From Planctomycetota bacterium (GTDB taxonomy: Bacteria > Planctomycetota > JAJSAM01 > JAJVHW01): 64,000 nt of DNA. Positions 2,828 to 45,172 of the stretch are shown in pieces. Numbering within the stretch: position 1 is the stretch's first letter; each line of letters begins with the position of its first letter. Location: NCBI GenBank assembly GCA_021414065.1, contig JAIOPE010000037.1, positions 119,887 through 183,886 of the forward strand. The letters are read 5' to 3'. Under the pieces are notes generated by a model, which saw nothing but the letters and a program-made list of their open reading frames with translations, searched no databases and had not been told where the DNA came from. Both the position numbers and the translations under genes were made by a program.

Positions 2828-3609
2828 TCGATGTCCACGATTGCTGCGACGATTGCGTCGATCACAGGCTCGCGCTTCGCCGCGACGAACTTCGCCGCGA
2901 GGTCCTTGCCGAGCGCGGGCTCCAACTTCTCGCGGAGCGCGTCGGTCGCGTGCACCAGCCGACCGAAGTTCGTCAGCGAGTTGTCGGACATGCGCTGTTC
3001 GAGGGCCGACATCTTCGCGGCGTCGGCCTGTCCCTCGACGACCAGCGCACGCAACTGCTCGATCGACCCTTCGCCGAGGACGAGACGCGCAGTCTCTTCT
3101 TCGTGCGCACGGACCAACTTCGCCACCGCCTCGCGTTGCGTGTCGGTGAGCCCGAGGTCGACACTGATCTGCCCGATCGATCGCCGGGGTGCGTCCGGAG
3201 TCGAGACGACCGAAGCGCGCGGCCGCCGAAGCAGTCGATCCACCGCGTCGGCGGAGATGAACACATTGCCAGCGCCGACCGTCGTCGGCCCGCCCACGCC
3301 GGACGAGCCACTAGCAGCGCTGGGCGCCGGGGTCGCAGGACTGACGACGGGCTGACCCGCCCGTCGCGCCGCGAGTTGCCTCTCTGCGGAAACCAGGCGG
3401 CGCTCAAGTTCGGCGATCCGCCGTCCGGTGCCGTCGGCGCGGTCGGCCTGATCGGCTAGGGATCGAGCGACCGACCCGTTCAGCTCCGGCTCGGCGGAGT
3501 CACCCGACACACCGCCAGGCGCATCACGTGCGACCGCCGCCACCACGAACGACGTGGCGGCGGCCACACAGATCGTCAACACCACTGAAGCCAACCGACT
3601 GGACCCCAT
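2824..3609 (-). CDS. Membrane-anchored protein with helical C-terminal region, unknown function
   Basis: The listed ORF begins at a GTG (3630), but an ATG at 3609 sits 6 nt after GAGGG and directly precedes the hydrophobic segment (RLASVVLTICVAAATSFVVAAVA), so 3609 is preferred. The product is about 261 residues: an N-terminal membrane anchor or signal, a predicted helical stretch (ADRADGTGRRIAELERRLVS), a Pro/Ala/Ser-rich linker, then a helical domain containing LGLTDTQREAVAKLV. That last motif is reminiscent of the LTxxQ motif of Spy/CpxP-type periplasmic proteins, but the match is weak. The gene ends in a 4-nt overlap with the downstream zinc-ribbon TPR gene, so the two form an operon. Confidence 0.65.
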   Translation of the reverse strand: MGSSRLASVVLTICVAAATSFVVAAVARDAPGGVSGDSAEPELNGSVARSLADQADRADGTGRRIAELERRLVSAERQLAARRAGQPVVSPATPAPSAASGSSGVGGPTTVGAGNVFISADAVDRLLRRPRASVVSTPDAPRRSIGQISVDLGLTDTQREAVAKLVRAHEEETARLVLGEGSIEQLRALVVEGQADAAKMSALEQRMSDNSLTNFGRLVHATDALREKLEPALGKDLAAKFVAAKREPVIDAIVAAIVDIE

Positions 3610-3659
3610 AGACATCCCTCGATGCGTCACGGTGCCGGGTCAGAGCCCCGGGAATGCAG

Positions 3660-4280
3660 CTACGACTGAGCGGACTTGCGAGCAGCGCGCGCCTTACGGC
3701 GACGACGGGACCAGCCGGCAAGCCCCGCAGCGCCGAGGCCGAAGAGTGCCCACGTGCCCGGTTCCGGGTTCGAGAACGCGTCGAGCTGAAGGGAGTCGCC
3801 GACGTTGTCGAAGTTGAAGGTCAGCGAAATGACGTTGTACCCGCTGTAGGTGCCGACCTGCGTCAGGCCGTACGCTCCGGCCCCGTTCAGATCGAAGGTG
3901 AAGACGTTCGTCGTGTTCGATGCGAGCGCGCCGGTGACATTCGTCAGCCCCCCGAGCGTGATCGCCGAGTTCACGCCATCCGTGAACGTCACGGACGCCA
4001 GGTAGGCACCCGTCACGAGACCCGTGACCAGTTCGAATCGCGGCGCGTGGTGCGTTGACGAGAATGTCGCGTCGTACACGAGGTAGTCGCCGCCCGTCGT
4101 CGATGCCGCGGTCAGGAAGAAGCTCCCGTCAACCACTGCGATCGTTCCGCCGACGACTCCTGCGTCGGGCGCGGTGAGGTCGACCGTGATCGATCCTCCG
4201 CTCGCGACGTCGGCCTGGGCGATGCCCGCGGCGGTGGCGAGGACGAGCGCCGCGACGCCCGCTTGGATATTCCGAATCAT
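3660..4280 (-). CDS. PEP-CTERM sorting domain protein
   Basis: A secreted protein of about 206 residues. The track ORF starts at 4391, but the ATG at 4280 gives a clean signal peptide (MIRNIQAGVAALVLATAAGIAQA). The body is Thr/Val/Gly-rich and predicted beta. The C-terminus has the tripartite PEP-CTERM signal: NPEPGTW, a hydrophobic helix (ALFGLGAAGLAGW), then SRRRRKARAARK. Such proteins are handled by an exosortase (XrtA type) and usually exported with exopolysaccharide. No exosortase is in the window, but an XrtA-type amidotransferase lies at about 57 kb. The basic tail after the helix is longer than usual. Confidence 0.8.
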   Translation of the reverse strand: MIRNIQAGVAALVLATAAGIAQADVASGGSITVDLTAPDAGVVGGTIAVVDGSFFLTAASTTGGDYLVYDATFSSTHHAPRFELVTGLVTGAYLASVTFTDGVNSAITLGGLTNVTGALASNTTNVFTFDLNGAGAYGLTQVGTYSGYNVISLTFNFDNVGDSLQLDAFSNPEPGTWALFGLGAAGLAGWSRRRRKARAARKSAQS

Positions 4281-4425
4281 GACTTGAGATGCTCCCGCTG
4301 GATGAGGTGGATTCTGTGAACTGAAACCCGGGTCGCGAGCGGACGGAGGCCGCCGCTCATCGACACGTGGACAGCACGGCCCGCCCCACATGGGGGCGGG
4401 CCGGCAGGTTCGGTCGGCGTTGCGA

Positions 4426-5727
4426 CTACGGGTACGGCAGGTAGGGAATGAGCCCCTTTGCGAATGCCTGGAGGAGGATCGTGTCCTTGTTATTCACGAT
4501 CCCGTCGCGGTTCACGTCGGCGGTGTCGAACCCGGGGCTCGGAGTCACGCCGGCGACCACCTTGGCGAGCGCCTTCGCGTCGCCGGTGTTCGGGCGACCG
4601 GCGGATCCGTCCAGACTGCCGAGCGGCGGCTGCCCGCCAACGGAAGCAGCGTGGTTCACGGCAAACTCGTAGGCGTCGAGGATGCCGTCGTTGTCGGCGT
4701 CCTTCTTCGTCGTGTCGTTGTCCACCGAGTCGGGGATGCCGTCTGCGTCCGCGTCGGTCGGCGTGCCGTTCGAGACGAGCGGATCCGTGCCGGTGGCGAG
4801 CTCGATGCCGTCCTCGATCGTGTCGCCGTCCGTGTCCTTCAGACTCGGGTTGGTGTGGTACACGTACGTCTCACGCCAGTTGCTGAGACCGTCGCGGTCG
4901 GTGTCCGTGCCGTTGTCGAACGCGCCCGACCCGCCGTAGACGAGGTTGTCCCAGTAGACGTCGTAGTCCTCGTCGCCGAAGTTGGTGGCGTTGATGATGA
5001 TGTTGCCGAGGGAGACCGTGCTGGTGTCGGCGATCGAGCCGACCAGGACGCCGTCCACGAAGTACGAGGTGCCGACGCCCACCGTGAGCACGAACGAGAG
5101 GCGGTGCGTCGTGTCGAAGGTCGTCGCCGCGACGCTGACCGGGTAGCCGCCAAGGTTGTAGTCCCATCCGTAGAACGCGGCGGACACCGTGCTCCCGCCC
5201 CACAGCGAGCTGTTCCCGGAGTGACGGAACGCGATGATCGGGAAGGCGGACACCGCGCCGCCCACGTCGAACCCGGTGGCCCAAAGCCCGGCGCTGCGAT
5301 CCTCGGTGCCCCAGTTGGCGGGGAGGTGCAGGTCGATCTGGACCGCCTGGACGGCGCCCGTGAGGCCCACGTCGAACTTGCGCCCCTGCGTGTTGTAGAA
5401 GCTCGAGCTGAACGAGGAGTTCCGGTTCGCTGCGCCATCCGCGATCCGGAGGCCGTGGCGCAGCACCGTGCCGCCGCCATAGCTGTACGAATCGAACAGC
5501 GCCGGCGGGAAGCGGTCGATGTACCACGAGCCCGCGACAGCGGCCTGGCCACCGCCGACGTCGGCCTTGGTGCCGGACGTCGGGATCGAGGTCATGTCTC
5601 CGTTGAAGACCGCCGCGGTCGCCAGCGCGACGCCACTGAGCGCAGCCACTCCCACCACGAGCGCAGCCCATCCGGCGCGAACGCGCCCGATCCGCCGCTC
5701 CACCTCACACTTCGCACGTCCGTTCAT
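4426..5727 (-). CDS. Secreted protein with LamG-like domain, TSP3 calcium repeats and dockerin-like tail
   Basis: The start is the ATG at 5727, 7 nt after GGAGG; the track's GTG at 5733 overlaps the ribosome site. The roughly 433-residue product has a signal segment (AGWAALVVGVAALSGVALATA), then a beta-rich region of about 200 residues resembling a LamG/concanavalin-like domain (VYWDNLVYGGSG). Next come thrombospondin type 3-like repeats (DTDRDGLSNWRE, DTDGDTIEDGIE, DADADGIPDSVD, DADNDGILDAYE), which bind calcium. The end resembles one dockerin or EF-hand repeat (DVNRDGIVNNKDTILLQAF). The protein is probably surface or extracellular. A possible sigma70 promoter lies upstream at 5786-5814. Confidence 0.75.
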   Translation of the reverse strand: MNGRAKCEVERRIGRVRAGWAALVVGVAALSGVALATAAVFNGDMTSIPTSGTKADVGGGQAAVAGSWYIDRFPPALFDSYSYGGGTVLRHGLRIADGAANRNSSFSSSFYNTQGRKFDVGLTGAVQAVQIDLHLPANWGTEDRSAGLWATGFDVGGAVSAFPIIAFRHSGNSSLWGGSTVSAAFYGWDYNLGGYPVSVAATTFDTTHRLSFVLTVGVGTSYFVDGVLVGSIADTSTVSLGNIIINATNFGDEDYDVYWDNLVYGGSGAFDNGTDTDRDGLSNWRETYVYHTNPSLKDTDGDTIEDGIELATGTDPLVSNGTPTDADADGIPDSVDNDTTKKDADNDGILDAYEFAVNHAASVGGQPPLGSLDGSAGRPNTGDAKALAKVVAGVTPSPGFDTADVNRDGIVNNKDTILLQAFAKGLIPYLPYP

Positions 5728-30615: not shown

Positions 30616-32049
30616 GTGCAACTCTTCGAATTCCGTCTGCCCGACATCGGCGAAGGCGTGGCCGAGGGCGAGATCGTCGAGTGGAAGGTCAAGGAGGGCG
30701 ACCAGGTCAGCGAGGACCAGGAGCTCGTCGAGGTGATGACCGACAAGGCGACGGTGCCCATCACCTGCCCCGTCGCGGGGACGATCCGCAAGGTCGTCGC
30801 GGCGGCCGGCACGGTGGTGCCCGTCGGCGCGATCCTCGTCGCGATTGAGCCCGCCGCCGGCGCGCACGTCCCGACGATCGCAGCCCACGGTGAGCACGGC
30901 GCGCACGAGGAGAAGGTCGCGAAGGAGGCTGCCGCAGCCGCGGCCGCAGCGGTGCCGGTCGCAGCGGCCCCCGCCGCCGAGCCCGTGTTCAAGCGCGCCC
31001 CCGGCGAGCGCGCTCTCGCCACGCCGTACACCCGGAAGATGGCCCGCGAACTCGGCCTCGACATCGAGACGATCAAGGGCGCCGGCGAAGTCGGCCGCGT
31101 GACGCCCGAGGACGTCGAGCGCATCGCTGCGGCGAAGAAGGCCCCGGCTGCCCCGGTCGCGGTCGCAAAGCCCGCGGCCGCACCTGTCGCTGCGCCTGCC
31201 GCTGCGCCTGCTGCCACGCCCTCGCTCTCCGAGCAGATCGCCGCCCAGCCCGTCGCGACCCCCGCACCGGTTGCGGTCGCGGCTCCCGCACCGGTCGCCG
31301 CCCCGGCCCCGGCCCCGGCGCCCGCGCCGATCGCGATCCAGCCCGGCGCTCGCGAGACGCGCATCCCGATCCGCGGACTCCGCAAGAAGATCAGCGAGCG
31401 GATGCACCAGTCGAAGTCCACGGCCGCGCACTTCACGTACGTGGACGAAGTGGACGTCACCGACCTCGTCAAGCTCCGCGGCGAGCTGAAGGAGTCGGCC
31501 GCCAAACGTGGCGCGAAGCTCACCTACATGCCCTTCATCATGAAGGCCATCGTGAGCGGCCTGAAGCTGTACCCCAACCTGAACGGCCTCACCGACGACG
31601 CCCGCCAGGAGTACGTAGTCAAGCACTACTACAACTTCGGCGTCGCGGTGGACACCGACGACGGTCTCATCGTTCCCGTCGTGAAGGACGTGGACCGCCG
31701 CTCGATGATCGAGATCGCGCTCGAGATCGACCGTCTCGCGACCGACGCGAGGAACGGCAAGTCGAAGCTCGACGACCTGCGCGACGGCACGTTCACGATC
31801 ACGAATGCCGGCAACATCGGCGGCCTCTTCGCGACGCCCGTCATCAACTACCCCGAGGCGGCGATCGTCGGCGTCCACGCGATCAAGCAGAAGCCGTGGG
31901 TCGTGAACGGCGAGATCAAGATCCGCGACATCATGTACCTCTCCATCTCGATCGATCACCGCATGAACGACGGCGCGACCGGCGCCCGCTTCATGAACCA
32001 GGTCGTCGCGCTCCTCCAGGACCCGCGGCGCCTGCTCCTGGAGATCTGA
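30616..32049 (+). CDS. 2-oxoacid dehydrogenase E2 component, dihydrolipoamide acyltransferase
   Basis: The core acyltransferase (477 residues, GTG start). One N-terminal lipoyl domain has its lipoylated Lys44 in VEVMTDKATVP. Alanine/proline-rich linkers (AAPAAAPAATP and similar) separate it from a peripheral subunit-binding domain (TPYTRKMARELGLDIETIKG). The catalytic domain (about 245-477) ends with SISIDHRMNDGATGARFMNQ, where the usual HRxxDG active site reads HRMNDG. A single lipoyl domain favours the branched-chain type or Gram-positive-style pyruvate complex. Confidence 0.93.
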   Translation: MQLFEFRLPDIGEGVAEGEIVEWKVKEGDQVSEDQELVEVMTDKATVPITCPVAGTIRKVVAAAGTVVPVGAILVAIEPAAGAHVPTIAAHGEHGAHEEKVAKEAAAAAAAAVPVAAAPAAEPVFKRAPGERALATPYTRKMARELGLDIETIKGAGEVGRVTPEDVERIAAAKKAPAAPVAVAKPAAAPVAAPAAAPAATPSLSEQIAAQPVATPAPVAVAAPAPVAAPAPAPAPAPIAIQPGARETRIPIRGLRKKISERMHQSKSTAAHFTYVDEVDVTDLVKLRGELKESAAKRGAKLTYMPFIMKAIVSGLKLYPNLNGLTDDARQEYVVKHYYNFGVAVDTDDGLIVPVVKDVDRRSMIEIALEIDRLATDARNGKSKLDDLRDGTFTITNAGNIGGLFATPVINYPEAAIVGVHAIKQKPWVVNGEIKIRDIMYLSISIDHRMNDGATGARFMNQVVALLQDPRRLLLEI

Positions 32050-33200
32050 TGACCGCCACGACGACCGCAGCCGTGCGTTCGGGCGGCGCCCCGGACCTCG
32101 GCCTGTTCCGCGTCCTCCGGGACGACGGCACGGCCGACCCTGCGACGGACCCGTGTCTCTCCGACGCGGACCTCATTCGTCTCCACACGCAGATGCTCCT
32201 CATCCGCACGCTGGACGAGCGGTGCCTGCGTCTCCAGCGCCAGGGCCGCATCGCGTTCTACGGCACGTCCACCGGCCAGGAGGCGGCGACCGTCGGCAGC
32301 GCCTTCTGCCTCGAGGCCGAGGACTGGTGCTTCCCGGCGCTCCGCGAGGGCGGCGCCGCGCTCATGCGCGGCATGCCCGTTTCCCGCTACATCGCGCAGT
32401 TGATGGGCAACGCGCACGACGAGGAGAAGGGCCACCAGCAGCCGATGCACTTCTCGTGGCGCGGGGCGAACCATGTGTCGCTGTCGTCGCCGATCGGCAC
32501 GCAGATCCCGCAGGCGGTCGGCTGCGCCCGGGCGATGCAGGTCGCCGGCGCGACGGGCCGCGTCGTCCTCGGCTTCATCGGCGACGGCGGCACGAGCGAG
32601 CCCGACTTCCACGTCGGCCTCACCTTCGCCGGCGTGTGGAAGTGCCCGGTGGTCGTCGTCTGCCAGAACAACGGGTGGGCGATCTCCGTGCCGACGTCCG
32701 CGCAGACCGCGTCGCCGACGATCGCCGTGAAGGGCCGCGGCTACGGCATCCCGTCGGTCCGCGTGGACGGGAACGACATCCTCGCCGTCGTGAAGGTCAC
32801 CCGCGACGCGATCTCCCGCGCCCGCCGCGGCGAGGGCCCGACGTTCATCGAGGCCGTCACGTACCGCCGCCACGGCCACAGCTCGTCCGACGACCCGACG
32901 CGCTACCGCGACCCCGCCGAGGTCGAGCGCTGGGAGAAGAACGACCCCGTCGAGCGCTTCCGCGCCCACCTCGTCGCCCGCGGCCTCTGGTCCGCCGAGG
33001 CCGAGACCGCCGAGATCGACCGCCAGAACGAGATGGTCACCCGCGAGATCCAGGAGGCCGAGAAGGCCGCCCCGCCCTCGCTCGACACGATCATCGAGGA
33101 CGTCACCGAGTTCGTCCGCCCGGAACTCCGCGAGCAGCTCGCCGAGGTCCGCCCGTTCTTCGAAGAGGGCAAGACCGCCGAGGGCGCCTTTCCCCTCTGA
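32049..33200 (+). CDS. 2-oxoacid dehydrogenase E1 component, alpha subunit (second copy)
   Basis: A second complete E1alpha (383 residues), sharing one base with the E2 stop (TGATG). It carries RCLRLQRQGRIAFYGTSTGQE, the TPP motif GDGGTSEPDFHVGLTFAGVW with CQNNGWAIS, and YRRHGHSSSDDPTRYRDP. It is clearly divergent from the first copy rather than a recent duplicate. There is no second E1beta nearby, so it either shares E1beta with the first copy to give alternative specificity or replaces it. It is the last operon gene before the accessory island; lpdA follows 10.6 kb later. Confidence 0.92.
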   Translation: MTATTTAAVRSGGAPDLGLFRVLRDDGTADPATDPCLSDADLIRLHTQMLLIRTLDERCLRLQRQGRIAFYGTSTGQEAATVGSAFCLEAEDWCFPALREGGAALMRGMPVSRYIAQLMGNAHDEEKGHQQPMHFSWRGANHVSLSSPIGTQIPQAVGCARAMQVAGATGRVVLGFIGDGGTSEPDFHVGLTFAGVWKCPVVVVCQNNGWAISVPTSAQTASPTIAVKGRGYGIPSVRVDGNDILAVVKVTRDAISRARRGEGPTFIEAVTYRRHGHSSSDDPTRYRDPAEVERWEKNDPVERFRAHLVARGLWSAEAETAEIDRQNEMVTREIQEAEKAAPPSLDTIIEDVTEFVRPELREQLAEVRPFFEEGKTAEGAFPL

Positions 33201-33486
33201 ATGTCTCGCGCGAGACACCGCTCGCGCGCGTCGTTCGCACTGCGTCCCAACCGTCCGAACGGAACTTCCGTTGCAAAGCCCTCGCCCCCGTCGCTTGAGC
33301 TCATCATCCACACGCGAAAACCACAACATCTCGTACTCTTTGCTCCTTTACAACCGTACATCTCGTGCCCTACACTCCTCGCCGGACAGGCAGCTGTCCC
33401 CACCCCCGACGAGACTCCAACGACCCCAGCGACCGAACCGCATGGCGCGGCGAGGTCTATCAGGTAGATTTCGACCGAGGGCTGGC
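33201..33486. other. Left junction of the accessory island
   Basis: No convincing gene. From about 33300 base composition becomes less GC-rich (AAAACCACAACATCTCG). A 16-bp perfect palindrome lies right after the E1alpha stop, and the last 45 bases contain a MazF-like reading (see the entries for both). The 88-residue track ORF here has no domain character. Confidence 0.45.
33202..33217. repeat. 16-bp perfect palindrome
   Basis: TGTCTCGCGCGAGACA lies immediately after the second E1alpha stop at the island boundary. It could be an operator, a terminator stem without loop, or a target site; no U-tract follows. Confidence 0.4.
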
Positions 33487-33490
33487 ATGA
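33446..33490 (+). pseudogene. Possible N-terminal remnant of a MazF-type toxin
   Basis: One frame ending in the TGA at 33488 reads TAWRGEVYQVDFDRGLA, close to the conserved MazF N-terminus (RGEVYWVDFDP). Only about 14 residues match, so chance is possible. The TGA overlaps the ATG of the next gene. Confidence 0.2.
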
Positions 33491-33957
33491 CAAATCACTC
33501 AACGATCCCCCTTTTGGCCACTCACGCCCGGCGGATGGAGCTCCCCTTCCTGGCGGCGCAAGCGTCCTTGGACCTGGATGCCGCCTCGCGTGGGGTGCTT
33601 CCTGCGCCGGACGCGCTTCAGGCGCTCACCGACTATCTCGGCGCGATTGCGTCGCGCGATTGCGACTCGGTCGCTGCAACTTGGTCCAACGCAGTGTTCG
33701 TCGTGCATCACGCGATCTCGGCCTTGGGGGACCCGGCCCCTTCAATGGCCACGATCCCGGACCTAGTCAGCAGGGCGAACGTCATCCATGAGTCGCTTTC
33801 GAGCATACTAGCCGCGATCCGATCCGCGCAGGCTCCTAGCGCGTCTGACGCGGCTAGCATGCGCGACTTCTGCGTCGCGCTGTCCCAAGCTGCGTTGGAG
33901 CGCGACGATCCTATGGTCGATGACGACTCGGTGCGCGTGCTATGTCTAGCGCACTAG
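33487..33957 (+). CDS. Unknown protein, first gene of the metallopeptidase-dCTP deaminase cassette
   Basis: The ATG at 33487 has GAGGG 5 nt upstream; the track start at 33271 is not supported. The 156-residue product has no family I recognise: predicted mostly helical, no signal peptide or membrane segment, with acidic stretches near the end (LERDDPMVDDDSVRV). Its 3' end overlaps the next gene by 16 nt, so it is probably translated with it. Base composition and codon use (CTA, TTG, AAT) differ from the neighbouring dehydrogenase genes, consistent with acquired DNA. Confidence 0.6.
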   Translation: MTNHSTIPLLATHARRMELPFLAAQASLDLDAASRGVLPAPDALQALTDYLGAIASRDCDSVAATWSNAVFVVHHAISALGDPAPSMATIPDLVSRANVIHESLSSILAAIRSAQAPSASDAASMRDFCVALSQAALERDDPMVDDDSVRVLCLAH

Positions 33958-35210
33958 CACCCGCGCTTTCCTACGCGCAGAGTCGCGTACGAGCACTGCT
34001 AGCAGAGATTACTCGCCTGCGTCATTTGGAATTCCCGTACCGGGACTCAGAGTTGGCACTGATTGCCCTCGAGGAACACATCAGAAAACGACAGGCGCTC
34101 CTCAGTCGTGCTGCCGGTGACCCGCAGGCGAATCCCGCATCCGTCCGGCAGATTTGCGCTGTCGCCATTGCGGACGTTGACTCACACCTTCCGATTGCGG
34201 GGTTCATACTCCGGTCCACGAACGTCCGAAACGCATTCGAGGCGTACGCCCCCATCCTGCGGCTTGCATCCGCGATACTCGAACCGCGCACCCCGCGCGC
34301 CAGCTGGCGAACGCGACTGCTCATGTCATCAGAGTGGCAGTTCTCTCCGCACATTCGCATGGCCGTCCCGGCACTTCCAGAGTTTCTTCTCCTTGGACTG
34401 CCCGCATCCGAGTCGGGGAACTCCCTCCTCATCCCGCTCGCAGGACACGAACTTGGACACGCTGTCCTAAACCGGCTTCGGATTGGCGACCAGATCGCGA
34501 ATCAAGTTGCGGCTACTACAAAGGACATCGCGCACAGGCGCTTTGGCACGTATCAAGGTGCCTTTCACCCGTCCGTCCTAGAGACCGACCTAGATCGGAA
34601 TCTACTTGCGCAGCGCGCAATAGCTGTCGTGTTGACGTGGGCGACGGCGCAGTCCGAGGAAGTGTTCTGCGACTTCATCGGATTGCGACTGTTCGGGACA
34701 GCATTTCTCAATGCCTTTGCCTATCTTCTTACCCCCGGCGACACGCACAAAAGGAGCCGTGATTACCCGATCACATCGGCTCGCGTGGCTCATTTGCTCC
34801 GCGCTGCCGCTGCGTACCAGATTCCCGTCCCGAGTGGCTATGCGGCAATGTTCTCTGATCCTGCCGCACCGAACCTGCTGACGGAAGAGAGAGAGCGACT
34901 GCACCTCGCGGATGACGTAACGAACGAGATGGTGCCGAAACTCATCGATCACGCGAACCAAGTGGTCACCGAGTCTGGTGTGGCCCTCGGCTCGGAAGAG
35001 GGTCGAGAGAAAGTACTCGGTGCGTTTCGCCGATCCACACCGGCCGAGGACGTAGACTGCCTCGCTGATATCCTATGCGCGGCGTGGGACGCGCAACCGG
35101 CGGGGTGCACCGACTGCGACTGGCGCCAAACAGCCGTTATCAACGAACTCGCACTCAAGACGATCGAAATATTTGAGATTCAGACGACGCTGCGCGAGGT
35201 CAACACCTAA
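33942..35210 (+). CDS. HELGH metallopeptidase-like protein, unknown family
   Basis: 422 residues. A zinc-protease motif GHELGHAVLN (His169, Glu170, His173) is followed at 239-244 by EEVFCD, giving the HExxH...ExxxD arrangement of gluzincin-type metallopeptidases. No membrane segments or signal peptide are visible, so it probably acts in the cytoplasm. The remaining regions are helical and unrecognised; CTDCDW near 386 has two Cys. It overlaps the preceding gene by 16 nt and the following dCTP deaminase-like gene by 1 nt (TAATG), making a compact three-gene unit. Base composition is lower in GC than the flanks. Substrate unknown. Confidence 0.65.
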   Translation: MSSALAPALSYAQSRVRALLAEITRLRHLEFPYRDSELALIALEEHIRKRQALLSRAAGDPQANPASVRQICAVAIADVDSHLPIAGFILRSTNVRNAFEAYAPILRLASAILEPRTPRASWRTRLLMSSEWQFSPHIRMAVPALPEFLLLGLPASESGNSLLIPLAGHELGHAVLNRLRIGDQIANQVAATTKDIAHRRFGTYQGAFHPSVLETDLDRNLLAQRAIAVVLTWATAQSEEVFCDFIGLRLFGTAFLNAFAYLLTPGDTHKRSRDYPITSARVAHLLRAAAAYQIPVPSGYAAMFSDPAAPNLLTEERERLHLADDVTNEMVPKLIDHANQVVTESGVALGSEEGREKVLGAFRRSTPAEDVDCLADILCAAWDAQPAGCTDCDWRQTAVINELALKTIEIFEIQTTLREVNT

Positions 35211-35833
35211 TGCTGAAAGCGGACTTCATCGCGTCTTTGCTCGTCGCTGGCGATAGCCCCGACGCGTCGGACCCGCTAGTCATTAGTCCGCGCCCGAATC
35301 TGGTAGATCTGGCGGATGGAGGAGCCGCCTCCGTCGACCTGCGACTAGGCTCGTGGTTCGTACTCCACCGTCAGTCCCGCGTGTCCCATGTGGATACACG
35401 CCCAGGATCTGCAGACGTAGGAGCTACCAAGTCCCAGTATGTTCCCATCGGATCCGAAATCAACCTCCACCCCGGCGGATTCATTCTTGGCGCGACCCTG
35501 GAGTGGGTTCGTTTGCCCGGGAATCTCGCGGCCTATGTGATAGGCAAGTCGAGCCTTGGACGTCGCGGCCTGATCATAGCAACGGCAACTGGTGTCCATC
35601 CAGGATTCAATGGTTGCCTCACTTTGGAACTGGCAAATGTCGGCGAGTTGCCCGTACTGATGCGTCCAGGAATGAAGATCTGTCAGATCTGTTTTCACTC
35701 CGTTCAGACTGGCCAGCCAAGCGTGATCGCGAGGAGTTCGTTTGCCGGCTCCAGGAAGCCGAGGCTCGGGACAATTGCGCGAGACTCATTTGCCGAGTCG
35801 CTAGCTGATGCGTGGTCATCGCGCAAGCGATAG
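35210..35833 (+). CDS. dCTP deaminase-like protein
   Basis: 207 residues of the dCTP deaminase/dUTPase superfamily. Typical motifs are SVDLRLGSWF near the N-terminus, GKSSLGRRGL (112-121, GRSSLAR in the housekeeping enzyme) and VHPGFNGCLTLELANVG with the catalytic-type Glu140, then MRPGMKICQICF. The residues expected for deamination are present, so it may convert dCTP to dUTP. Housekeeping dcd genes are usually elsewhere; position in a defence-type island with a metallopeptidase suggests a dNTP-depleting antiviral role, known for some dCTP deaminases, but that is inference. It overlaps the convergent mod gene by 18 nt. Confidence 0.75.
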   Translation: MLKADFIASLLVAGDSPDASDPLVISPRPNLVDLADGGAASVDLRLGSWFVLHRQSRVSHVDTRPGSADVGATKSQYVPIGSEINLHPGGFILGATLEWVRLPGNLAAYVIGKSSLGRRGLIIATATGVHPGFNGCLTLELANVGELPVLMRPGMKICQICFHSVQTGQPSVIARSSFAGSRKPRLGTIARDSFAESLADAWSSRKR

Positions 35834-38494
35834 CACCTTCATCACCTCGTCGCCGTAGTGGTTGATCACCTTCACCGCGATTCGGCCCGTTGAAGGCGGG
35901 GTGAACGGGCGGCTCTCGGTTGAGTAAAGCGCCTGCCACGCAGACTCATCCACCTCCGCGCGGAGAGCGCGCTGGAGTTTCTCGTAGGGCTCGTCGGCGC
36001 CCGTGAAGTATGCGTGGCGGACGAAGAACGACTCGCCGTCATAGTCGGTGTCGATGAACCAGCACGCGATGTCGTGCTCGCCCGCGCCCGTCGCCGGGTC
36101 GATGCTGCTGCTGCGGACTTGGCCAGTCGTCGGGTCGTAGACGTCGAGGCCGCGGATCCGGACGACGATCTTGCCGTCCTTCGCTCGACGGACCTCGATG
36201 TCGGGCTCGCCGAAGACCATGAACAGGTTCCCGGCCCCGGTCTTCTTCAGGAGTTCCTCGCCCATCGTCAGGTCGGGGTTCATTCGGGCGGTCAGCACAG
36301 TCAGCTTCCCGTATTGCCGGGTCTCCTCGGACACATGCGGGTCGAAGGCAAACCCGCACACGATCAGGAGGTCGAAGCCGACGCCGCGCACAGCCTCCTT
36401 GGCCGCCTCCTTCACCTGTTGCGGTGCAACCGTGCCGTGCTCTGGGCCGATCGACACGGCGACCCTGCGCACCTTCCCGTCCTTGTCCGTGTAATCGCCT
36501 GCGCCCTGGAGCCACGCCCCGGCGAACGGCTCAAGCGAGTCGAAGACGAGGCGCTCCTTCTTCACTGTGTTCTGAACGCCCGCCTTCCGCAGGTTGTCGA
36601 GGATCATCGACTCGAACGGGATGGCGGGCCCCGCGGGTCGTTCCGCCACCGACTCGTCCGTCGCCTGCACCCGGTGCGGCGACAGGCTCTCGACAGTGAA
36701 CGGCCCGGTCACCCGCACGCGCTTCGCGTCCTCGTACGGCTGGTCGTGGAGGATCTCGGTGTCGGCGTGCCGGGCGATCGCCGCGTCGATCTCGGGACGG
36801 GACATACCCTCGCGGATCTCGGGGTTTCGCGCGATGTGTTCGAGTTTGACGTGAGTCACCCGGCGGCACACGAGTCCGCGCCTCACGTCACCCGATGGCT
36901 GGTCCTTCGGGAGTGACTGGCTCGCAACTTCGCGCAACTTCTCACGTCCCTCCACGGAGTCGGCGAGAAGGTAGTACGGGTACCGTGCTGTCATTAGGCG
37001 GGCTCGCGCCAAAGTCAACGCGACTCGGCTCGTGTCGATCGCAATCCAGCGTCGCCCACGCTCTTCCGCGACGAACGCCGTCGTTCCGCTTCCGCACGTC
37101 GGATCCAACACGATGTCTCCCGGGTCCGTCGTCATGCAGATGCACCGATCCACCACCTTCGTGGACGTCTCAACAACGTACTTCTTGTCGGAGGAGAACC
37201 CCGCGACCACGGTGTCGGTCCACTGATCGCCGATTGGCACCGCGCGGAAGTCATCGAAGTACCGGACGTAATAGAGTCCGCCGTCGGTGGCCTCCACTCG
37301 TCCGGCCGCCAGCAACCGAGCCATCCCCTCCTCATTCGTCTTCCAGCGACTGCGAGCGCCGGGTCGCCAATCCCGCCTTCGGAATCGTACCGGAAAGCAG
37401 CATGCGGCGCCCTCGCCCTTCTCACGCCCCATGGCCTGACTCTGCAGGTTGTCGAGCCGGAACACACGCGCCCCTGCGGGAATCTGCGAGACATCACCAC
37501 GCTCCTGAGCGGTCAGGCGTCGGCGCGAACCGTCAGGCAGTTCCAGGAGTGAGTATGGCCCCTCCGTACTCCGGCTCAAGTCCTTCGAAGCGTAGGGACG
37601 CCGGAACTTGAAGCGCGCCTTCGTCTTGGCATAGAGCAACACGAAGTCGCACGTCCCGGCCAGGTACTCGCCGGTCGATCCCGATGTCTTGGCGAACGTG
37701 ATTTGCGAGACAAGATTTGCGCTTCCGAATACTTCATCGAGAACACAGCGCACGAGATGTACGTTGTCAGCCCCGATTTGCACGAATACGGAGCCACTTT
37801 CGCTCAGCAGTTCGCGCGCGACAACCAGCCGATCTCGCAAGTACGAGAGATAGGAGTGGACGCCGAGTTGCCACGTATCTCTGAACGCACGGATCTGCTC
37901 CGGCTGGCGGGTCGCGTCCTCCACTCGCCCATCCATGATATCGCGACGGCGCGTCGTCACCTGCCAGTTGGAACCGAACTTGATTCCGTACGGCGGGTCC
38001 ATGAACACTGTCTGGACCTTCCCCTTGAAACCCTCCTTCTCGGCGAGGGACGTCATCACCAGGAGCGAGTCGCCCAGGATCATCCGGTTCGACCAGTGCT
38101 GGTCGTGGTGGTAGAAGTCCACCTTCTTGTCGAAGTCGGAGAGCCCGTTGAAGTCCCCGAACAGGTCCATCTGGTCGCCGGATGACCGCCGCGCGGCGCT
38201 CCGCCGCACGTCCTCCACGATCGCCTGAGGGTGGATCTTCTCCTGGATGTAGATCGGTACCGCCGGCACCTCCAGCGGGTGCCGGTCCTGCTCGTCCTTG
38301 CCCTTCCAGACGAGTTGCGGGTCGAGCGAGGGGTCGCGGGGATAGAGAACGGTCGCCGGGCTCGCCTCGTCCTCGCGAACGAAGTCGCGAAGTTCGCCCG
38401 TTGGGATGTTCGGACGCCGGTCCTGGTGCTTGATTGCATCCACGGGCGCGGGATTCGCACCCTTCGCCGCGTCCTTCTTGCTTCGGCTAGCCAT
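35816..38494 (-). CDS. Type III-like site-specific DNA methyltransferase (Mod)
   Basis: 892 residues. N6-adenine/N4-cytosine methyltransferase with the catalytic motif DPPYG (TVFMDPPYGIKFGSNWQ) before the SAM-binding FxGxG-type motif (DPTCGSGTTAFVAEERG), the order of beta-class Mod enzymes. The roughly 350-residue C-terminal region (from VTHVKLEHIARNPEIREGM) is larger than in short Mods and may hold target recognition or a nuclease-related fold. The ATG at 38494 has GGAGG 9 nt upstream and overlaps the end of the DUF5615 gene by 8 nt. It is last in the res-DUF5615-mod operon. Expected to protect the host from the Res subunit. Confidence 0.88.
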   Translation of the reverse strand: MASRSKKDAAKGANPAPVDAIKHQDRRPNIPTGELRDFVREDEASPATVLYPRDPSLDPQLVWKGKDEQDRHPLEVPAVPIYIQEKIHPQAIVEDVRRSAARRSSGDQMDLFGDFNGLSDFDKKVDFYHHDQHWSNRMILGDSLLVMTSLAEKEGFKGKVQTVFMDPPYGIKFGSNWQVTTRRRDIMDGRVEDATRQPEQIRAFRDTWQLGVHSYLSYLRDRLVVARELLSESGSVFVQIGADNVHLVRCVLDEVFGSANLVSQITFAKTSGSTGEYLAGTCDFVLLYAKTKARFKFRRPYASKDLSRSTEGPYSLLELPDGSRRRLTAQERGDVSQIPAGARVFRLDNLQSQAMGREKGEGAACCFPVRFRRRDWRPGARSRWKTNEEGMARLLAAGRVEATDGGLYYVRYFDDFRAVPIGDQWTDTVVAGFSSDKKYVVETSTKVVDRCICMTTDPGDIVLDPTCGSGTTAFVAEERGRRWIAIDTSRVALTLARARLMTARYPYYLLADSVEGREKLREVASQSLPKDQPSGDVRRGLVCRRVTHVKLEHIARNPEIREGMSRPEIDAAIARHADTEILHDQPYEDAKRVRVTGPFTVESLSPHRVQATDESVAERPAGPAIPFESMILDNLRKAGVQNTVKKERLVFDSLEPFAGAWLQGAGDYTDKDGKVRRVAVSIGPEHGTVAPQQVKEAAKEAVRGVGFDLLIVCGFAFDPHVSEETRQYGKLTVLTARMNPDLTMGEELLKKTGAGNLFMVFGEPDIEVRRAKDGKIVVRIRGLDVYDPTTGQVRSSSIDPATGAGEHDIACWFIDTDYDGESFFVRHAYFTGADEPYEKLQRALRAEVDESAWQALYSTESRPFTPPSTGRIAVKVINHYGDEVMKVLSLAR

Positions 38495-38864
38495 GGTCGT
38501 ACACCTCCGGGCTCGGTCCTTCCATGGTCGATCCGCCCTTCGTCACCCGCACCAGCCGCCCGGCGATCGTGCCCGCGGAAGCGAGCGCTGCGTCGATCCG
38601 CTCCGCCAGCCCGCTCGTGTCGTCGTCGCAGGTACAGACCACGATTCCAGCATGGCGGCCACCCCGTCGGTGCAGCGCGATGAAGTCCCGCCGGTTGAAG
38701 GTGAGGACAGCACGCCCCGCCGCGGTGGCGTCCTTGAGCACCTGATCGTCGGGCACGCGCTGCCGCGACTGGCCGGCCTCGTGCGTCGTCAGGACGTCGT
38801 GACCGAGCGAGCGCAGGCGCTCCACGGCTTCGGCGGCGAAGTTCTCGTTCCCGTAGAGGAGCAT
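38487..38864 (-). CDS. DUF5615 (PIN-like) toxin-type protein
   Basis: 125 residues from ATG 38864, 2 nt after the res stop; the track's longer start overlaps res and is not needed. It resembles DUF5615 PIN-like proteins, usually paired with DUF433 antitoxins: an N-terminal LLYGNENFAAEAVERLRSLG, then HDVLTTHEAG, DDQVLKDATAAGRAVLTFNR and RDFIALHRR. The usual first acidic residue (x-D-E-N) reads N-E-N here. The partner-type DUF433 domain is at the C-terminus of the upstream Res protein. A predicted RNase-like toxin; activity unproven. Confidence 0.75.
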   Translation of the reverse strand: MLLYGNENFAAEAVERLRSLGHDVLTTHEAGQSRQRVPDDQVLKDATAAGRAVLTFNRRDFIALHRRGGRHAGIVVCTCDDDTSGLAERIDAALASAGTIAGRLVRVTKGGSTMEGPSPEVYDHG

Positions 38865-38866
38865 CG

Positions 38867-41800
38867 TCACGCCTCGTCGTGTTCCCGCGCGGCGCGCGCG
38901 ATCTCGTCGGCATGGGAACCCGCGTACGCCCACGCGGCCTCGAGGTCACCCGCCGTGAGTCCAGGGTAGTTCCGGAGTATCCAGGCGTAGTCCCTGCCGA
39001 GGTCACGCCACGACACGAGCAGCCAGACCGGTATCCGGGTGGACCGGACGCATGCGTCCCCTCCGCACACACCGGGTGTCCGCTGGATCGCGGCAGGAGC
39101 AAGGCCCGACTTTCGGCGCTCCACCAGGAGTCCGCGAATCAGGGACTGCACGTTCCACGGGTCCGCGACTTCGAGGAACGCCCAGCGGCCGAAGTCGCCC
39201 TGGTTGTTGACAGCCGGCACCCACAGATCCCGTGCGGTCGCGACCTTCTCCGCCTTGTCGCGCCGCGCCTCTCCGGAGACCTCGACGAGGAGCCGCAACG
39301 GGTCCTGCGGACCGGCGCCGTCGTCGATGTGGACGACGAAGTCCGGCGTGTACTGCCGCTCTGCGCCGTCGATCGTGTACGGGATCGTGAAGCCGAGATT
39401 GTGGTTCTTCACGTAGCGGACTACCTCTGGCATGTCCTCGATCGACTGGGCCGTCTTCTGCTCCCAGGAATCTGTGTCCGCGACGACATGGCTCACGTGG
39501 CACTTGTCCGCCCGCGTGCGCCAGGTCGGCCGCGTGGTGTCGAAGTCCACGAACTCGGTGGAGCCGACGGTGTCGTATGGCCGGAGGATCGGGCGCAGGC
39601 GCGGCCGCGTGTCGTGGTGGCGGGCGACGGCCAGGTGGATCTTCTTCGCGGCCTCGTCCCGGTGCCGGTGGAGGCGGAGCATCTGCGGATAGGCGTTGTC
39701 GTGGAGGACGAGGCACTCCCGCATCCAGCGACGCGTGATCGCGAGGACCTGCGGGAACAGCCACGGCCGCGGCGCGCCCGCCGGGTCGCTGAAGTACTGC
39801 TCCAGCGTGTGCTTCGCCAGGTCGAACTCGACGCTCGCGGCGCGGGTGTCCCGCCAGTCTGTGTAGTGCTCCGCGGCCTCGCCCACGATGGGCGCGACCT
39901 CCGTCCGCGTCGGGACGTCCCGGGTGGACAGCACGAGCTTCGAGGACGCGTCGAACGTCGCCGCCAGCCGATCCTCGGGAAGTTCGAACCGGTAGCCCGT
40001 CACGCGCGGGAAGGTGATGGCGCACGCCGCGCGGGCGGGAAGCGCCCGGACCCGGGTCGGCGGGTCGCGCGGCTCGGGCTCCTTCTCGGAGCCCGCAGAA
40101 GGGATAAACGAGAACGGCACGCCGTAGACCTCGGCGTACTCGGGCGTGAACATGCCTTCCGCGTCTGGCACGTACGAGCGGCGCCGGAGCGCGCGGCCGA
40201 CGACCTGCTCACAGAGGATCTGGGTGCCGAACGCCCGGACGCCGAGCACGTGCGTCACTGTGTTCGCGTCCCATCCCTCGGTGAGCATCGAGACGGAGAC
40301 CACGCAGCGCACGTGTTCGCCGAGCTTTCCCGGCTTCCCGACGGTGTTCATCACCTCGCGGAGGATCTCCTCGTCGGTGATCTCCGAGACGTCGCGCCCC
40401 GGGAACCGCCGCCGCATCTCGTTCCGGAACTCCTCGATTTCAGCCGCCGCGATCTTCTTGAAGTCGGCGCTCATCCCCTCGCCGGACTCGAGCTGGCCGC
40501 TGTCCACGAGGATGGTGTTCGGCCGCGCGGCCCACTTCCGGTCCCGTTCGTTGCTGAAGAGAGCGAGGCTCCCCGGCACCACCACGGTCGAGCCGTCGTC
40601 GAGCGTCCGCTCCCACCCGGCGACGTGGTCGTACACCAGCTTCGACACGTTCGTGTTGTTGCAGACGATGATGAACACCGGCGGCGTGTGGGCCTTGTCG
40701 GGTTCGCTCGCCGCGCGCTCCTGCCACTTCGCAAAGTACTTCTCGTAGTTGGAGTAGAGGCTCTTCAGCGCCCCCTGGAGTTCCGGGGGAAGGACGGGCT
40801 CGCCGGTCAGCGGACCGGTCTTCCGTCCCTTGCGAGGGAGCGCCTCGCGGATCCGCGGCCAGATGTCCCGGTACGTCGGGGCGTCGCCGGTCATCGAGTC
40901 GTCGGCCACCGGCACGCGAGGCACCTTCACGATCCCGCTCTCGATCGCGTCGATGAGCGAGAAGTCAGACACGACCCAGGGGAACAACTTCGTCTCGCCC
41001 CAGCCCGACCCCCGGAGAAAGAACGGGGTCGCCGACAGGTCGTAGACCGCCCGGATCCCGAGCTTCCGCTGCACCGCCTCGACCCCGCTGATCCAGACAC
41101 GGGCCTCATCATCGCGCTTCTTGGCCTCGCGCCGGTCGTCCGCGGAGAGCTCCGCGTCCTCGCCCCCCGCCCTGCGCCGGTAGCAGTGGTGCGCCTCGTC
41201 GTTGAGGACGACGATCCCCTTCTTCGCGCCGAAGGCCCGGCAGACGCGTCGGACCATCTGGTCGGGCGTCTCCGTGAACGCACCGGTCTGCGCGCCGCCG
41301 AGGATCGACTTCGTCAGCTTCGCCGCGTCGCCGGTCTCGCGTTGGAGGAACGCATGGAAGTTCGTGATCACGAACTTCGCGGAGAGAAGGCGGCGGGCGT
41401 CGTCCTCCCCCACAACGTCCCGTTCCCGGTAGTAGTTGTCCGGCTCGTTCGGAAGCAGCACGCGGAGGCGGTCCCGGATGGTGACCCCGGGCGTGATGAC
41501 GAGGAACGCGTCCGAGAACCGGCGGTCGTGGGGGTTCTCGATGCGGTTGAGCGTCTGCCACGCGATCAGCATGGCCATGACGACAGTCTTCCCCGTCCCG
41601 GTCGCCATCTTGAGGGCGATGCGGAAGAGGCCGGGGTTCGCGTCGTCGTTCAGCCGGCGCAGCTCCGTCTCGATCCACGCCTCGCCGGAGCGCGAGGCCG
41701 CCTCGGCGAGGAACATGACCGTCTCGAGGGCCTCGATCTGGCAGAAGAACAGCGGGCGCCCGCGGTCCGGCCGGGTCCAGTACTCCAGCAGCCGCCGCGA

Positions 41801-42082
41801 CGTCCGCGTCAGGTACGGACGCCCCTTCGCCCGCCAGACATCCACCCGGCTGCGGATCGAGTTGATGAGCTCGTTCGGCTGGATCCGGTCCTCGGTCCAC
41901 TCCGTGAACAGGTCCGCCTGCTTCGTCTTCTTCCGGGCGGCCGGGATCGGGACGAAGTAGCACGAGGTCCGCCGCCCCTCCACCACCTCGTTCGTGATCC
42001 CCGTCTCGTCGAATCGGAAGTGCCTTGACGGCTCGCGGAAGGGCGAGTTGAGGATCGGGTTCTCGATGACAACTTGGGGCAT
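38867..42082 (-). CDS. Type III-like restriction helicase-nuclease with C-terminal DUF433 antitoxin domain
   Basis: About 1071 residues; ATG 42082 has GGAG 9 nt upstream (track start is TTG 42097). The N-terminus (MPQVVIENPILNSPFREP) resembles the BPTD_3080-type restriction endonuclease family. SF2 helicase motifs: Walker A (KMATGTGKTVVMAM), Walker B (VVLNDEAHHCY) and motif VI (EQVVGRALRRR). A PD-ExK-like nuclease region follows (YTPDFVVHIDDG ... LLVEVSGEARRDK). The last 70 residues (TPGVCGGDACVRSTRIPVWL ... YPGLTAGDLEAAWAY) are a DUF433 domain, normally a free antitoxin to DUF5615 proteins. The next gene encodes DUF5615, so restriction and toxin-antitoxin functions appear fused. Confidence 0.85.
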   Translation of the reverse strand: MPQVVIENPILNSPFREPSRHFRFDETGITNEVVEGRRTSCYFVPIPAARKKTKQADLFTEWTEDRIQPNELINSIRSRVDVWRAKGRPYLTRTSRRLLEYWTRPDRGRPLFFCQIEALETVMFLAEAASRSGEAWIETELRRLNDDANPGLFRIALKMATGTGKTVVMAMLIAWQTLNRIENPHDRRFSDAFLVITPGVTIRDRLRVLLPNEPDNYYRERDVVGEDDARRLLSAKFVITNFHAFLQRETGDAAKLTKSILGGAQTGAFTETPDQMVRRVCRAFGAKKGIVVLNDEAHHCYRRRAGGEDAELSADDRREAKKRDDEARVWISGVEAVQRKLGIRAVYDLSATPFFLRGSGWGETKLFPWVVSDFSLIDAIESGIVKVPRVPVADDSMTGDAPTYRDIWPRIREALPRKGRKTGPLTGEPVLPPELQGALKSLYSNYEKYFAKWQERAASEPDKAHTPPVFIIVCNNTNVSKLVYDHVAGWERTLDDGSTVVVPGSLALFSNERDRKWAARPNTILVDSGQLESGEGMSADFKKIAAAEIEEFRNEMRRRFPGRDVSEITDEEILREVMNTVGKPGKLGEHVRCVVSVSMLTEGWDANTVTHVLGVRAFGTQILCEQVVGRALRRRSYVPDAEGMFTPEYAEVYGVPFSFIPSAGSEKEPEPRDPPTRVRALPARAACAITFPRVTGYRFELPEDRLAATFDASSKLVLSTRDVPTRTEVAPIVGEAAEHYTDWRDTRAASVEFDLAKHTLEQYFSDPAGAPRPWLFPQVLAITRRWMRECLVLHDNAYPQMLRLHRHRDEAAKKIHLAVARHHDTRPRLRPILRPYDTVGSTEFVDFDTTRPTWRTRADKCHVSHVVADTDSWEQKTAQSIEDMPEVVRYVKNHNLGFTIPYTIDGAERQYTPDFVVHIDDGAGPQDPLRLLVEVSGEARRDKAEKVATARDLWVPAVNNQGDFGRWAFLEVADPWNVQSLIRGLLVERRKSGLAPAAIQRTPGVCGGDACVRSTRIPVWLLVSWRDLGRDYAWILRNYPGLTAGDLEAAWAYAGSHADEIARAAREHDEA

Positions 42083-42272
42083 TGGGCCCAACTCCAAGAT
42101 GCACTACGTCTCTCACCGCGAACTGCCCGTGGTAGCGCGGCTGGTTTCGCCCCCGTGCCACGCCCGGAGCGAACGACGCGGACGCAAGAGTAGCAGGCAA
42201 CCTGCGGAAGTCGCGATCGTTCGCCCGCGCTGTCGGACCCGTCGGATAGGCTGCCCGGTTACCGAGAGGACC
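42083..42272. promoter_or_regulatory. Divergent promoter region of the restriction operon and the serine protease gene
   Basis: A 190-bp gap that must hold promoters for both directions. No clear -35/-10 pair or operator was recognised. Confidence 0.3.
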
Positions 42273-43289
42273 ATGGTCAACAAGCCCGAACCGCCCCCCG
42301 AATCTGACCCTCGCGCGATCGCGCGCCGCGTGGCGACTGCGACCGACTGCGACGTCATCCTGTACTGCGGCGGGATCAACGGGTCTGGCGAGGAGGCCGT
42401 GCGCACCGCGGTCCCCAAAGACGGGGCCCGCCGCCCGAACGTCCATCTGCTACTGACGACGTACGGGGGCAGCGCTGAGTCGGCGTTCCGAATCGCGCGG
42501 TCGCTGAGGCGGAAGTACGCCAAGGGGAAGCTCACGGTCGTCGTCGACTCGTACTGCAAGAGCGCCGGGACTCTCCTCGCGGTTGGCGCGAACGAGATCG
42601 TAATGTCCGACCTCGCGGAACTCGGCCCGCTTGATGTGCAGCTTCGCAAGCCGGACGAGATCGCTGAGCGACAGTCGGGTCTGACGTCGTTTGAGGCTCT
42701 GCGCACGCTCCAGGACCGCGCATACGCGGACTTCCAGGAGTTCATGCTTCGACTTCGGCTAGGCACGAAGGGGCAGATCAGCACGAAGACTGCGGCCGAC
42801 GTCGCTTCAAAGCTGGTGACAGGTCTCTACCAACCGGTCTACGCGCAGATCGACCCAATTCGCGTAGCGGAGGACGCCCGAGCGATGGCTGTCGCCGAGC
42901 AGTACGGACGCCTGCTACAGACGAGCAACGTGAAGCCAGGTACTTTGGACCGACTCCTTCGCGAGTACCCGGACCATGGGTTCGTGCTGGATCGGGAGCA
43001 GGCGACGAAGCTCTTTGAGTCCGTGCGTGTGCCATCGCCCGACGAAGCCGCACTGCTGGACCACATCCACGAACTCGTAGAGAGCCGGGCCGGCAGCGAG
43101 GAGCCGTTTGTCTCGAACCTGTCGGCCCCGCCAAGCGGTGACGGCAGCACGAAAGTCCACCCCGTTCCTAGCGAATCGACGAACGGCACGTCCCGAGTTG
43201 GGACGCAGCCAAGCCCTGATGCGGCCGCGGACGCACCACCTCGCGGGCACGCCATCGTTCCCGCACCGGAGGCTGCGTGCGGACACTGA
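42273..43289 (+). CDS. SDH/SppA-like (ClpP-fold) serine protease
   Basis: About 338 residues from ATG 42273 (GAGAGGACC upstream); the track start at 41994 lies in the res promoter region. The core (about 20-180) matches the serine dehydrogenase proteinase/SppA group of ClpP-fold proteases: LLTTYGGSAESAFRIARSL, then VVDSYCKSAGTLLAVGANEI with the nucleophile-type Ser in KSAGT, then LAELGPLDVQL. No signal peptide or membrane helix, so probably cytoplasmic. The C-terminal 60 residues are Pro/Ser-rich and look disordered. The stop overlaps the HigA-like gene. Its location beside a restriction operon suggests a defence role, which is inference. Confidence 0.78.
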   Translation: MVNKPEPPPESDPRAIARRVATATDCDVILYCGGINGSGEEAVRTAVPKDGARRPNVHLLLTTYGGSAESAFRIARSLRRKYAKGKLTVVVDSYCKSAGTLLAVGANEIVMSDLAELGPLDVQLRKPDEIAERQSGLTSFEALRTLQDRAYADFQEFMLRLRLGTKGQISTKTAADVASKLVTGLYQPVYAQIDPIRVAEDARAMAVAEQYGRLLQTSNVKPGTLDRLLREYPDHGFVLDREQATKLFESVRVPSPDEAALLDHIHELVESRAGSEEPFVSNLSAPPSGDGSTKVHPVPSESTNGTSRVGTQPSPDAAADAPPRGHAIVPAPEAACGH

Positions 43290-43609
43290 GGCGGCAGTCA
43301 GCGACGCCTCGGCGCCCCCGCCGCGACCTGCCGCCGACGCACCCGGGCGTCATCCTCCACGAGGAGTTCCTCGTGCCGCTGGCGATCTCGCAGTACGCGC
43401 TCGCGAAGGCGATTCATGTTCCGCCCCGCCGCATCAACGAGATCGTCCACGGGCTCCGCGGCATCTCCGCCGACACCGCCCTTCGCCTCGGCCGCCACTT
43501 CGGGATGGACCCCCGCTTCTGGATGAACCTCCAGTCTCACTTCGAGATGGAGACCGCCCGCGACGCCCTCGGATCTCGCCTGGAGCGCGAAGTCGCCGTC
43601 CGCGCCTGA
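43277..43609 (+). CDS. HigA-like XRE antitoxin or regulator without visible HigB
   Basis: 110 residues with a GTG start at 43277 overlapping the protease gene by 13 nt. The HigA-type HTH is clear: THPGVILHEEFLVPLAISQY, then IHVPPRRINEIVHGLRGIS and ADTALRLGRHFGMDPRFWMN. HigA antitoxins normally follow a small RelE-like HigB toxin gene. No such gene is seen on either side; the upstream neighbour is the ClpP-fold protease. It may regulate that protease gene or be an orphan antitoxin. The N-terminal 20 basic residues may not be real; later starts are possible. Confidence 0.78.
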   Translation: MRTLRRQSATPRRPRRDLPPTHPGVILHEEFLVPLAISQYALAKAIHVPPRRINEIVHGLRGISADTALRLGRHFGMDPRFWMNLQSHFEMETARDALGSRLEREVAVRA

Positions 43610-43774
43610 GCACCGAGGCCGGGAAGTCGCTCGCATCGCCCCCGGCATCGCCCCCGCCTCGGTCCTCGCTGGACGCCCGCGCCTTCGTGCCGGAGATTCG
43701 TCCCCCGGACGATCCGTCTGGCCGCGTGACATCGAGTCGCGACGGCCGGGCCCGTCCCCACAGGAGACACTCCC

Positions 43775-45171
<1,397 letters not shown>

Positions 45172-45172
<1 letters not shown>

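Follow-up and report, generated by a model that had tools for sequence, protein, structure and literature searches.

Operons in which a DUF433 antitoxin gene stands directly upstream of a gene for a PIN-like toxin are among the described systems closest to the locus analysed here. One of them, vapBC10 (a PIN-COG2442 pair), was shown to function as a toxin-antitoxin system; its antitoxin undergoes cleavage by ClpXP2s and is an activator of its own promoter (PMC3834315). The DUF433 fold is known to be a winged-helix, 3-helical-bundle one (PMC2701414, PMC3834315). In VapBC10-type pairs such as ssr2962/slr1767 and sll7033/sll7034 of Synechocystis the antitoxin is small and free, and that of the second pair, sll7034, has an N-terminal helical extension. 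Toxins have also been described in the context of restriction-modification (RM). In PrrC-PrrI (EcoprrI) the gene of a toxic RNase lies in a type Ic RM operon, and the anticodon nuclease PrrC, an ABC-HEPN protein, is held inactive by the RM enzyme, the Hsd complex, in place of a standard antitoxin (PMC3506569, PMC3710099). Independent fusions have joined HEPN domains to the REase or helicase subunits of RM systems, and not to the methylases (PMC3710099), and in proteins of the CapRel-SJ46 type an antitoxin domain that is covalently part of a larger defence protein acts as a sensor (PMC10865869). Makarova and colleagues observed that immunity loci hold toxins while seeming to be devoid of typical antitoxins, and proposed the immunity proteins themselves as the inhibitors (PMC3506569).

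The window (the whole analysed stretch, 64,000 nucleotides from a Planctomycetota bacterium) contains an RM operon in which a DUF433 domain forms the C-terminus of the restriction endonuclease, Res. Several genomes of the same phylum encode Res proteins identical to ones in named Planctomycetota records, which places the source genome in the Planctomycetota. The order of DUF433 and PIN-like toxin is that of the VapBC10-type pairs, but the antitoxin domain is not a small free-standing protein, as it lies inside a frame of 1078 codons, and Res takes the place of the N-terminal extension. As in PrrC-PrrI, the gene of a putative toxic RNase is part of an RM operon; here, however, a standard antitoxin domain is present, and it resides in the nuclease. 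The architecture allows a guard role like that of PrrC, where the toxin would be held by the RM enzyme and freed upon anti-restriction. It differs from the HEPN fusions, in which the toxin domain is joined to the restriction subunit, and from CapRel-SJ46-type proteins, which carry antitoxin and toxin in one chain, whereas the present locus has the antitoxin on the nuclease and the toxin separate. A literature search returned no paper that combines DUF433 and DUF5615 (the family of the neighbouring toxin gene) and none naming BPTD_3080 (the family of the Res protein). With a typical antitoxin domain found on a restriction nuclease twice, the toxin being the next gene, the proposal of Makarova and colleagues becomes directly testable.

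The genes res, DUF5615 and mod form a compact three-gene operon on the minus strand (Table 1). For res, the ATG at 42082 has a better ribosome-binding site than the TTG at 42097, as judged from the ribosome-binding-site energy. With GTG 38870 as its start codon, the DUF5615 gene overlaps the res stop (GTGA at 38867–38870); with ATG 38864, the two genes are 2 nt apart. At its 3' end, the DUF5615 gene shares 8 nt with the beginning of mod. The PADLOC model matched by Mod, PDLC03632, is one for type III methyltransferases.

Table 1. Features of the fused RM operon and of the surrounding island (positions within the window)
Feature	Position	Strand	Basis or remarks
Res-DUF433 fusion gene	38867..42082	-	1071 aa; ATG 42082, in-frame TTG 42097; open frame
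BPTD_3080 restriction endonuclease part (helicase + TnsA-like nuclease)	39137..42067	-	NF046055 match, alignment, TnsA fold
Junction/linker, residues 988–1003	39089..39136	-	usual Res end-point and low pLDDT at residues 1001–1014
DUF433 antitoxin domain core (PF04255, full length)	38921..39088	-	profile, sequence and fold matches
C-terminal helix of the antitoxin domain	38870..38920	-	alignment with 17 stand-alone DUF433s
DUF5615 PIN-like toxin gene	38487..38864	-	ATG 38864 or GTG 38870; PF18480 match
Mod, N6/N4 DNA methyltransferase of the same RM system	35816..38494	-	PF01555 99 bits; PADLOC PDLC03632 939 bits
dCTP-deaminase-like gene of the island	35210..35833		
422-aa protein of unknown function with HELGH motif, island	33942..35210		
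ClpP-like SDH protease, island	41994..43289		
HigA-type antitoxin gene, island	43277..43609		TIGR02607, 99.9 bits

The original prediction had described the large protein as a type III-like helicase-nuclease. Helicase and nuclease are both present, while the relationship to EcoP15I-like type III enzymes does not hold: residues 11–987 match the BPTD_3080 model NF046055 with 1178.3 bits (cut-off 800, profile positions 1–966 of 970), the type III Res model NF012027 yields 18.8 bits against a cut-off of 564, and among the type III-type Res models only the broad helicase model PF04851 is passed. A full-length Res and a Mod encoded downstream on the same strand are what BPTD_3080 systems have in common with the window. 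The nuclease part resembles TnsA in a fold comparison of the predicted structure (Z 8.1), its other fold matches having middling Z values, and the nuclease residues D919/E939/K951 (numbering of P0001) fall in invariant columns of an alignment of 60 sequences. A dead nuclease, considered for the VEVSG found in place of the expected ExK, was ruled out, as the close family regularly has S/T at this place.

The C-terminus had been proposed to be a DUF433 domain of 70 residues, and it is indeed DUF433, although the full domain with its C-terminal helix comprises about 76 residues. Pfam DUF433 (PF04255) covers Res residues 1004–1059 over its entire length (positions 1–56 of 56; E 5e-18, 65 bits, cut-off 23.6), and a genome-wide family search places the domain at the same spot (window 38921–39088). 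The tail matches a solved DUF433 protein, PDB 2GA1, in its sequence (E 1.4e-19) as well as in its predicted fold (Z 9.9, rmsd 2.0 Å over 65 residues). In a structure model of Res residues 840–1076, built with 60 natural sequences, the nuclease domain is confidently predicted, residues 1001–1014 are disordered, and the tail is folded (mean pLDDT about 77–89 per ten-residue block); the model thus shows the tail as a separately folded domain on a disordered linker. Most stand-alone DUF433s of the subfamily begin with an N-terminal helical extension (EKAxLLxx...ELGDxFPGIE), which is variable and sometimes different. In both fusions (the second, in locus L065, is described below) it is this extension that Res replaces, and the tail ends approximately where most of its stand-alone relatives end.

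DUF433 had further been taken to be, as a rule, an antitoxin encoded apart from its DUF5615 toxin-like partner. That it usually is a free antitoxin paired with a PIN-like toxin agrees with the literature cited above and with the nearest stand-alone DUF433s in the phylum (about 43–57% identical), which are followed by a DUF5615 gene of the NENF type in 12 of the best 14 loci. The same kind of gene follows the tail in the window: it is a DUF5615 gene (PF18480, 69.7 bits, cut-off 23.8) of the PIN-like toxin type usual behind this DUF433 subfamily. Its product is 48.6% identical over 107 aa to a relative on the Synechocystis plasmid pSYSA, which adjoins a DUF433 gene, the coordinates of the two matching sll7033/sll7034. 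According to PMC4963859, an earlier study demonstrated growth inhibition and rescue for five pairs of pSYSA, and the table of that paper tags exactly five Type II pairs with the study in question, sll7033/sll7034 among them; it is from this table that the link to the pair is read. A structure model of the DUF5615 protein, computed with no alignment and with some 11 residues missing, was poor (pLDDT 51).

One could suppose that toxin and tail are inactive and drifting, the remnant of a decaying pair. The first acid of DUF5615 relatives, an Asp, is replaced by Asn in the toxin, and the codon-position G+C pattern is weaker in the tail than in res (0.72/0.60/0.80). However, Asn at this position is common in the subfamily, being found in the window and in most NENF-type members (window 38487–38864; L211–L224), the frames are intact and overlapping, and of the positions conserved in at least 85% of the stand-alone relatives the window retains 32 of 34 in the toxin and 18 of 19 in the antitoxin. 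We consider such decay decidedly unlikely, and the toxin was not concluded to be dead on account of the Asn, since that residue is so common in the subfamily. The reported toxin sll7033 has Asp where most members of the NENF subfamily have Asn.

A fusion seen in a single draft genome calls for caution, as it might stem from a frameshift or from the joining of two genes during assembly, and the species is represented by only one genome, a draft of 184 contigs. We think that this is extremely unlikely. The tail is in the res frame, which runs without an internal stop from 42097 or 42082 down to the stop at 38867, and there is no homopolymer of five or more nucleotides near the junction. Moreover, an independent assembly, the Planctomycetota MAG JA3.bin7 (locus L065), has the identical architecture, a BPTD_3080 Res (1167 bits) with a DUF433 tail and a DUF5615 gene directly behind it. 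Because this locus repeats the arrangement independently, an artefact is ruled out.

Among the Res proteins sampled, the fusion is rare. Of 126 Res C-termini besides that of the window (drawn from genomes, viral contigs and phylum relatives, with a few duplicates included), only the one in L065 carries DUF433, and the median end of these proteins lies 15 residues beyond position 985. Further Res-DUF433 fusions were found neither in 65 plasmid records nor in 31 viral loci nor in 392 Planctomycetota genomes: the Res matches from plasmids and viruses all stop short of the DUF433 domain, and in the Planctomycetota genomes all other tail matches, among the matches listed, are in frames of at most 404 codons. 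One other Res with an enlarged C-terminus, that of L156 (G137; ORF 1096–4596), is a BPTD_3080 protein with an unrelated 153-residue extension that has no Pfam match.

The two fusions do not appear to descend from one event. In trees of the Res part (quick LG+G4 trees), the window pairs with a Euzebyaceae protein (L081) and L065 pairs with L074, neither of which has a tail, and constraining the two fused proteins to one group lowers lnL by 125.8 units (p-AU 0.0012), so that a single ancestral fusion is rejected. Since common descent is rejected, at least two independent origins of the fusion are most likely.

Of 92 loci that contain res as well as mod, 87 have mod downstream in the same orientation, and more than half of these have one or more additional genes in between, among them DUF5131, Fic/Doc, HicA/HicB, nucleotidyltransferase, HepT, AbiEii-like AAA, GmrSD, PD-(D/E)XK and others. 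The res-mod gap of BPTD_3080 systems thus accommodates toxin, antitoxin and defence genes, and it may serve as a cargo slot in which new systems can be discovered (loci L037–L147). In two acidobacterial loci (L050 and L055) a DUF433 gene of another subfamily lies unfused between res and mod. What is unusual is the fusion to the nuclease, not the association within the gap.

We favour, with somewhat more confidence than doubt, a process in which the pair was captured at the res end, so that the fused protein would bind and silence the toxin. A mobile type II toxin-antitoxin pair (DUF433 and DUF5615) would have entered the res-mod gap of a BPTD_3080 operon, and the antitoxin frame would have become joined onto the res 3' end. 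The antitoxin would from then on have been a flexibly attached C-terminal domain of Res, with the toxin translated right after it. As long as the cell is healthy, the toxin is most likely kept bound and silent by Res-DUF433; were the fusion protein to be degraded, sequestered or no longer produced, the toxin would become active. This would stabilise the RM locus and may provide a backup to restriction. The features in support are a full DUF433 on a full Res, the adjacent toxin with its stop/start overlap, the usual pairing within the subfamily, the recurrence of the fusion, the conserved positions, the relatives reported as working pairs (sll7033/sll7034 and vapBC10), the disordered linker before a separately folded tail, and the repeat in L065 described below. 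Judging from these sequence features, the tail most likely still neutralises the toxin, so that antidote and restriction enzyme would be one molecule. There are counterpoints. An antitoxin, which classically must be short-lived, is oddly placed on a large, stable enzyme; the tail of L065 keeps just 14 of the 19 conserved antitoxin positions (its toxin keeps 33 of 34); and the subfamily, window included, mostly has Asn at the first Asp.

The L065 locus contains a 64-nt direct repeat of the res 3' end (4495–4558 and 5269–5332, 92% identity), the second copy being downstream of the toxin. The repeat brackets the DUF433 tail and the DUF5615 gene. It would fit a pair inserted into the res end and is a possible insertion footprint; the window has no duplicated res end of this kind. 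A duplicated end is also what is predicted if the fusion is a near-neutral by-product of an insertion at the res 3' end, in which case the tail would neutralise the toxin without any contribution from Res and with no coupling between restriction and toxin control. The frequency of unfused toxin, antitoxin and defence genes in the gap is in keeping with such a by-product, as are the N-termini of stand-alone DUF433s, which are variable and hence replaceable. That two fusions share the same junction and the same type of pair speaks against it, although the events are few and both likenesses would follow from insertion at that place. We regard this as unlikely on the whole, but as an alternative to be taken seriously.

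The tail might instead be mainly a DNA-binding device, for operon regulation or for engagement of Res with DNA, the link to the toxin being secondary. In favour are the winged-helix, 3-helical-bundle fold of DUF433 and the finding that VapB10 is an activator bound to its own promoter (PMC2701414, PMC3834315). It is quite unlikely, though, that this is its principal role, as the toxin gene has been kept directly behind the tail in both fusions and all other sampled Res proteins work without such a tail. A similarly low probability attaches to an internal start that would yield an extra, free and short DUF433, which would make the pair an ordinary toxin-antitoxin system. In L065 an ATG in the right frame coincides exactly with the domain start (MEAIQTTPG...), and its ribosome-binding site is moderate (-5.3 kcal/mol), but at this place the window offers no ATG in frame, just GTG and CTG codons with weak sites near -3 kcal/mol.

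The original idea that losing or inhibiting Res could free the toxin describes something possible but not straightforward. The overlapping stop and start suggest coupled translation of res and the toxin gene, and an early nonsense mutation in res would therefore probably silence the toxin as well, while a Res inactivated by a missense mutation would retain its antitoxin tail. For the toxin to be released, the fusion protein would have to be proteolysed or blocked, or damaged in its tail alone. A more elaborate version, which we think unlikely, makes Res both antitoxin and sensor: anti-restriction proteins, proteolysis or the engagement of Res would loosen the tail's hold on the DUF5615 toxin, and the toxin would then stop growth as a second line of defence. 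If true, the coupling between immunity and suicide proposed for RM systems would here take a covalent form, akin in its logic to PrrC-PrrI and to the HEPN fusions on restriction subunits.

The RM genes are located on an insertion of about 10 kb within a 2-oxo acid dehydrogenase operon. This island, between E2/E1 and lpdA (window 33200–43775), comprises the RM operon and four further genes (Table 1). No HigB toxin for the HigA-family antitoxin was noticed among the listed neighbouring ORFs. The distance from E2 (30616–32049) to lpdA (43775–45172) is 11.7 kb in the window vs 1.4–1.7 kb in the family relatives G002 and G004.
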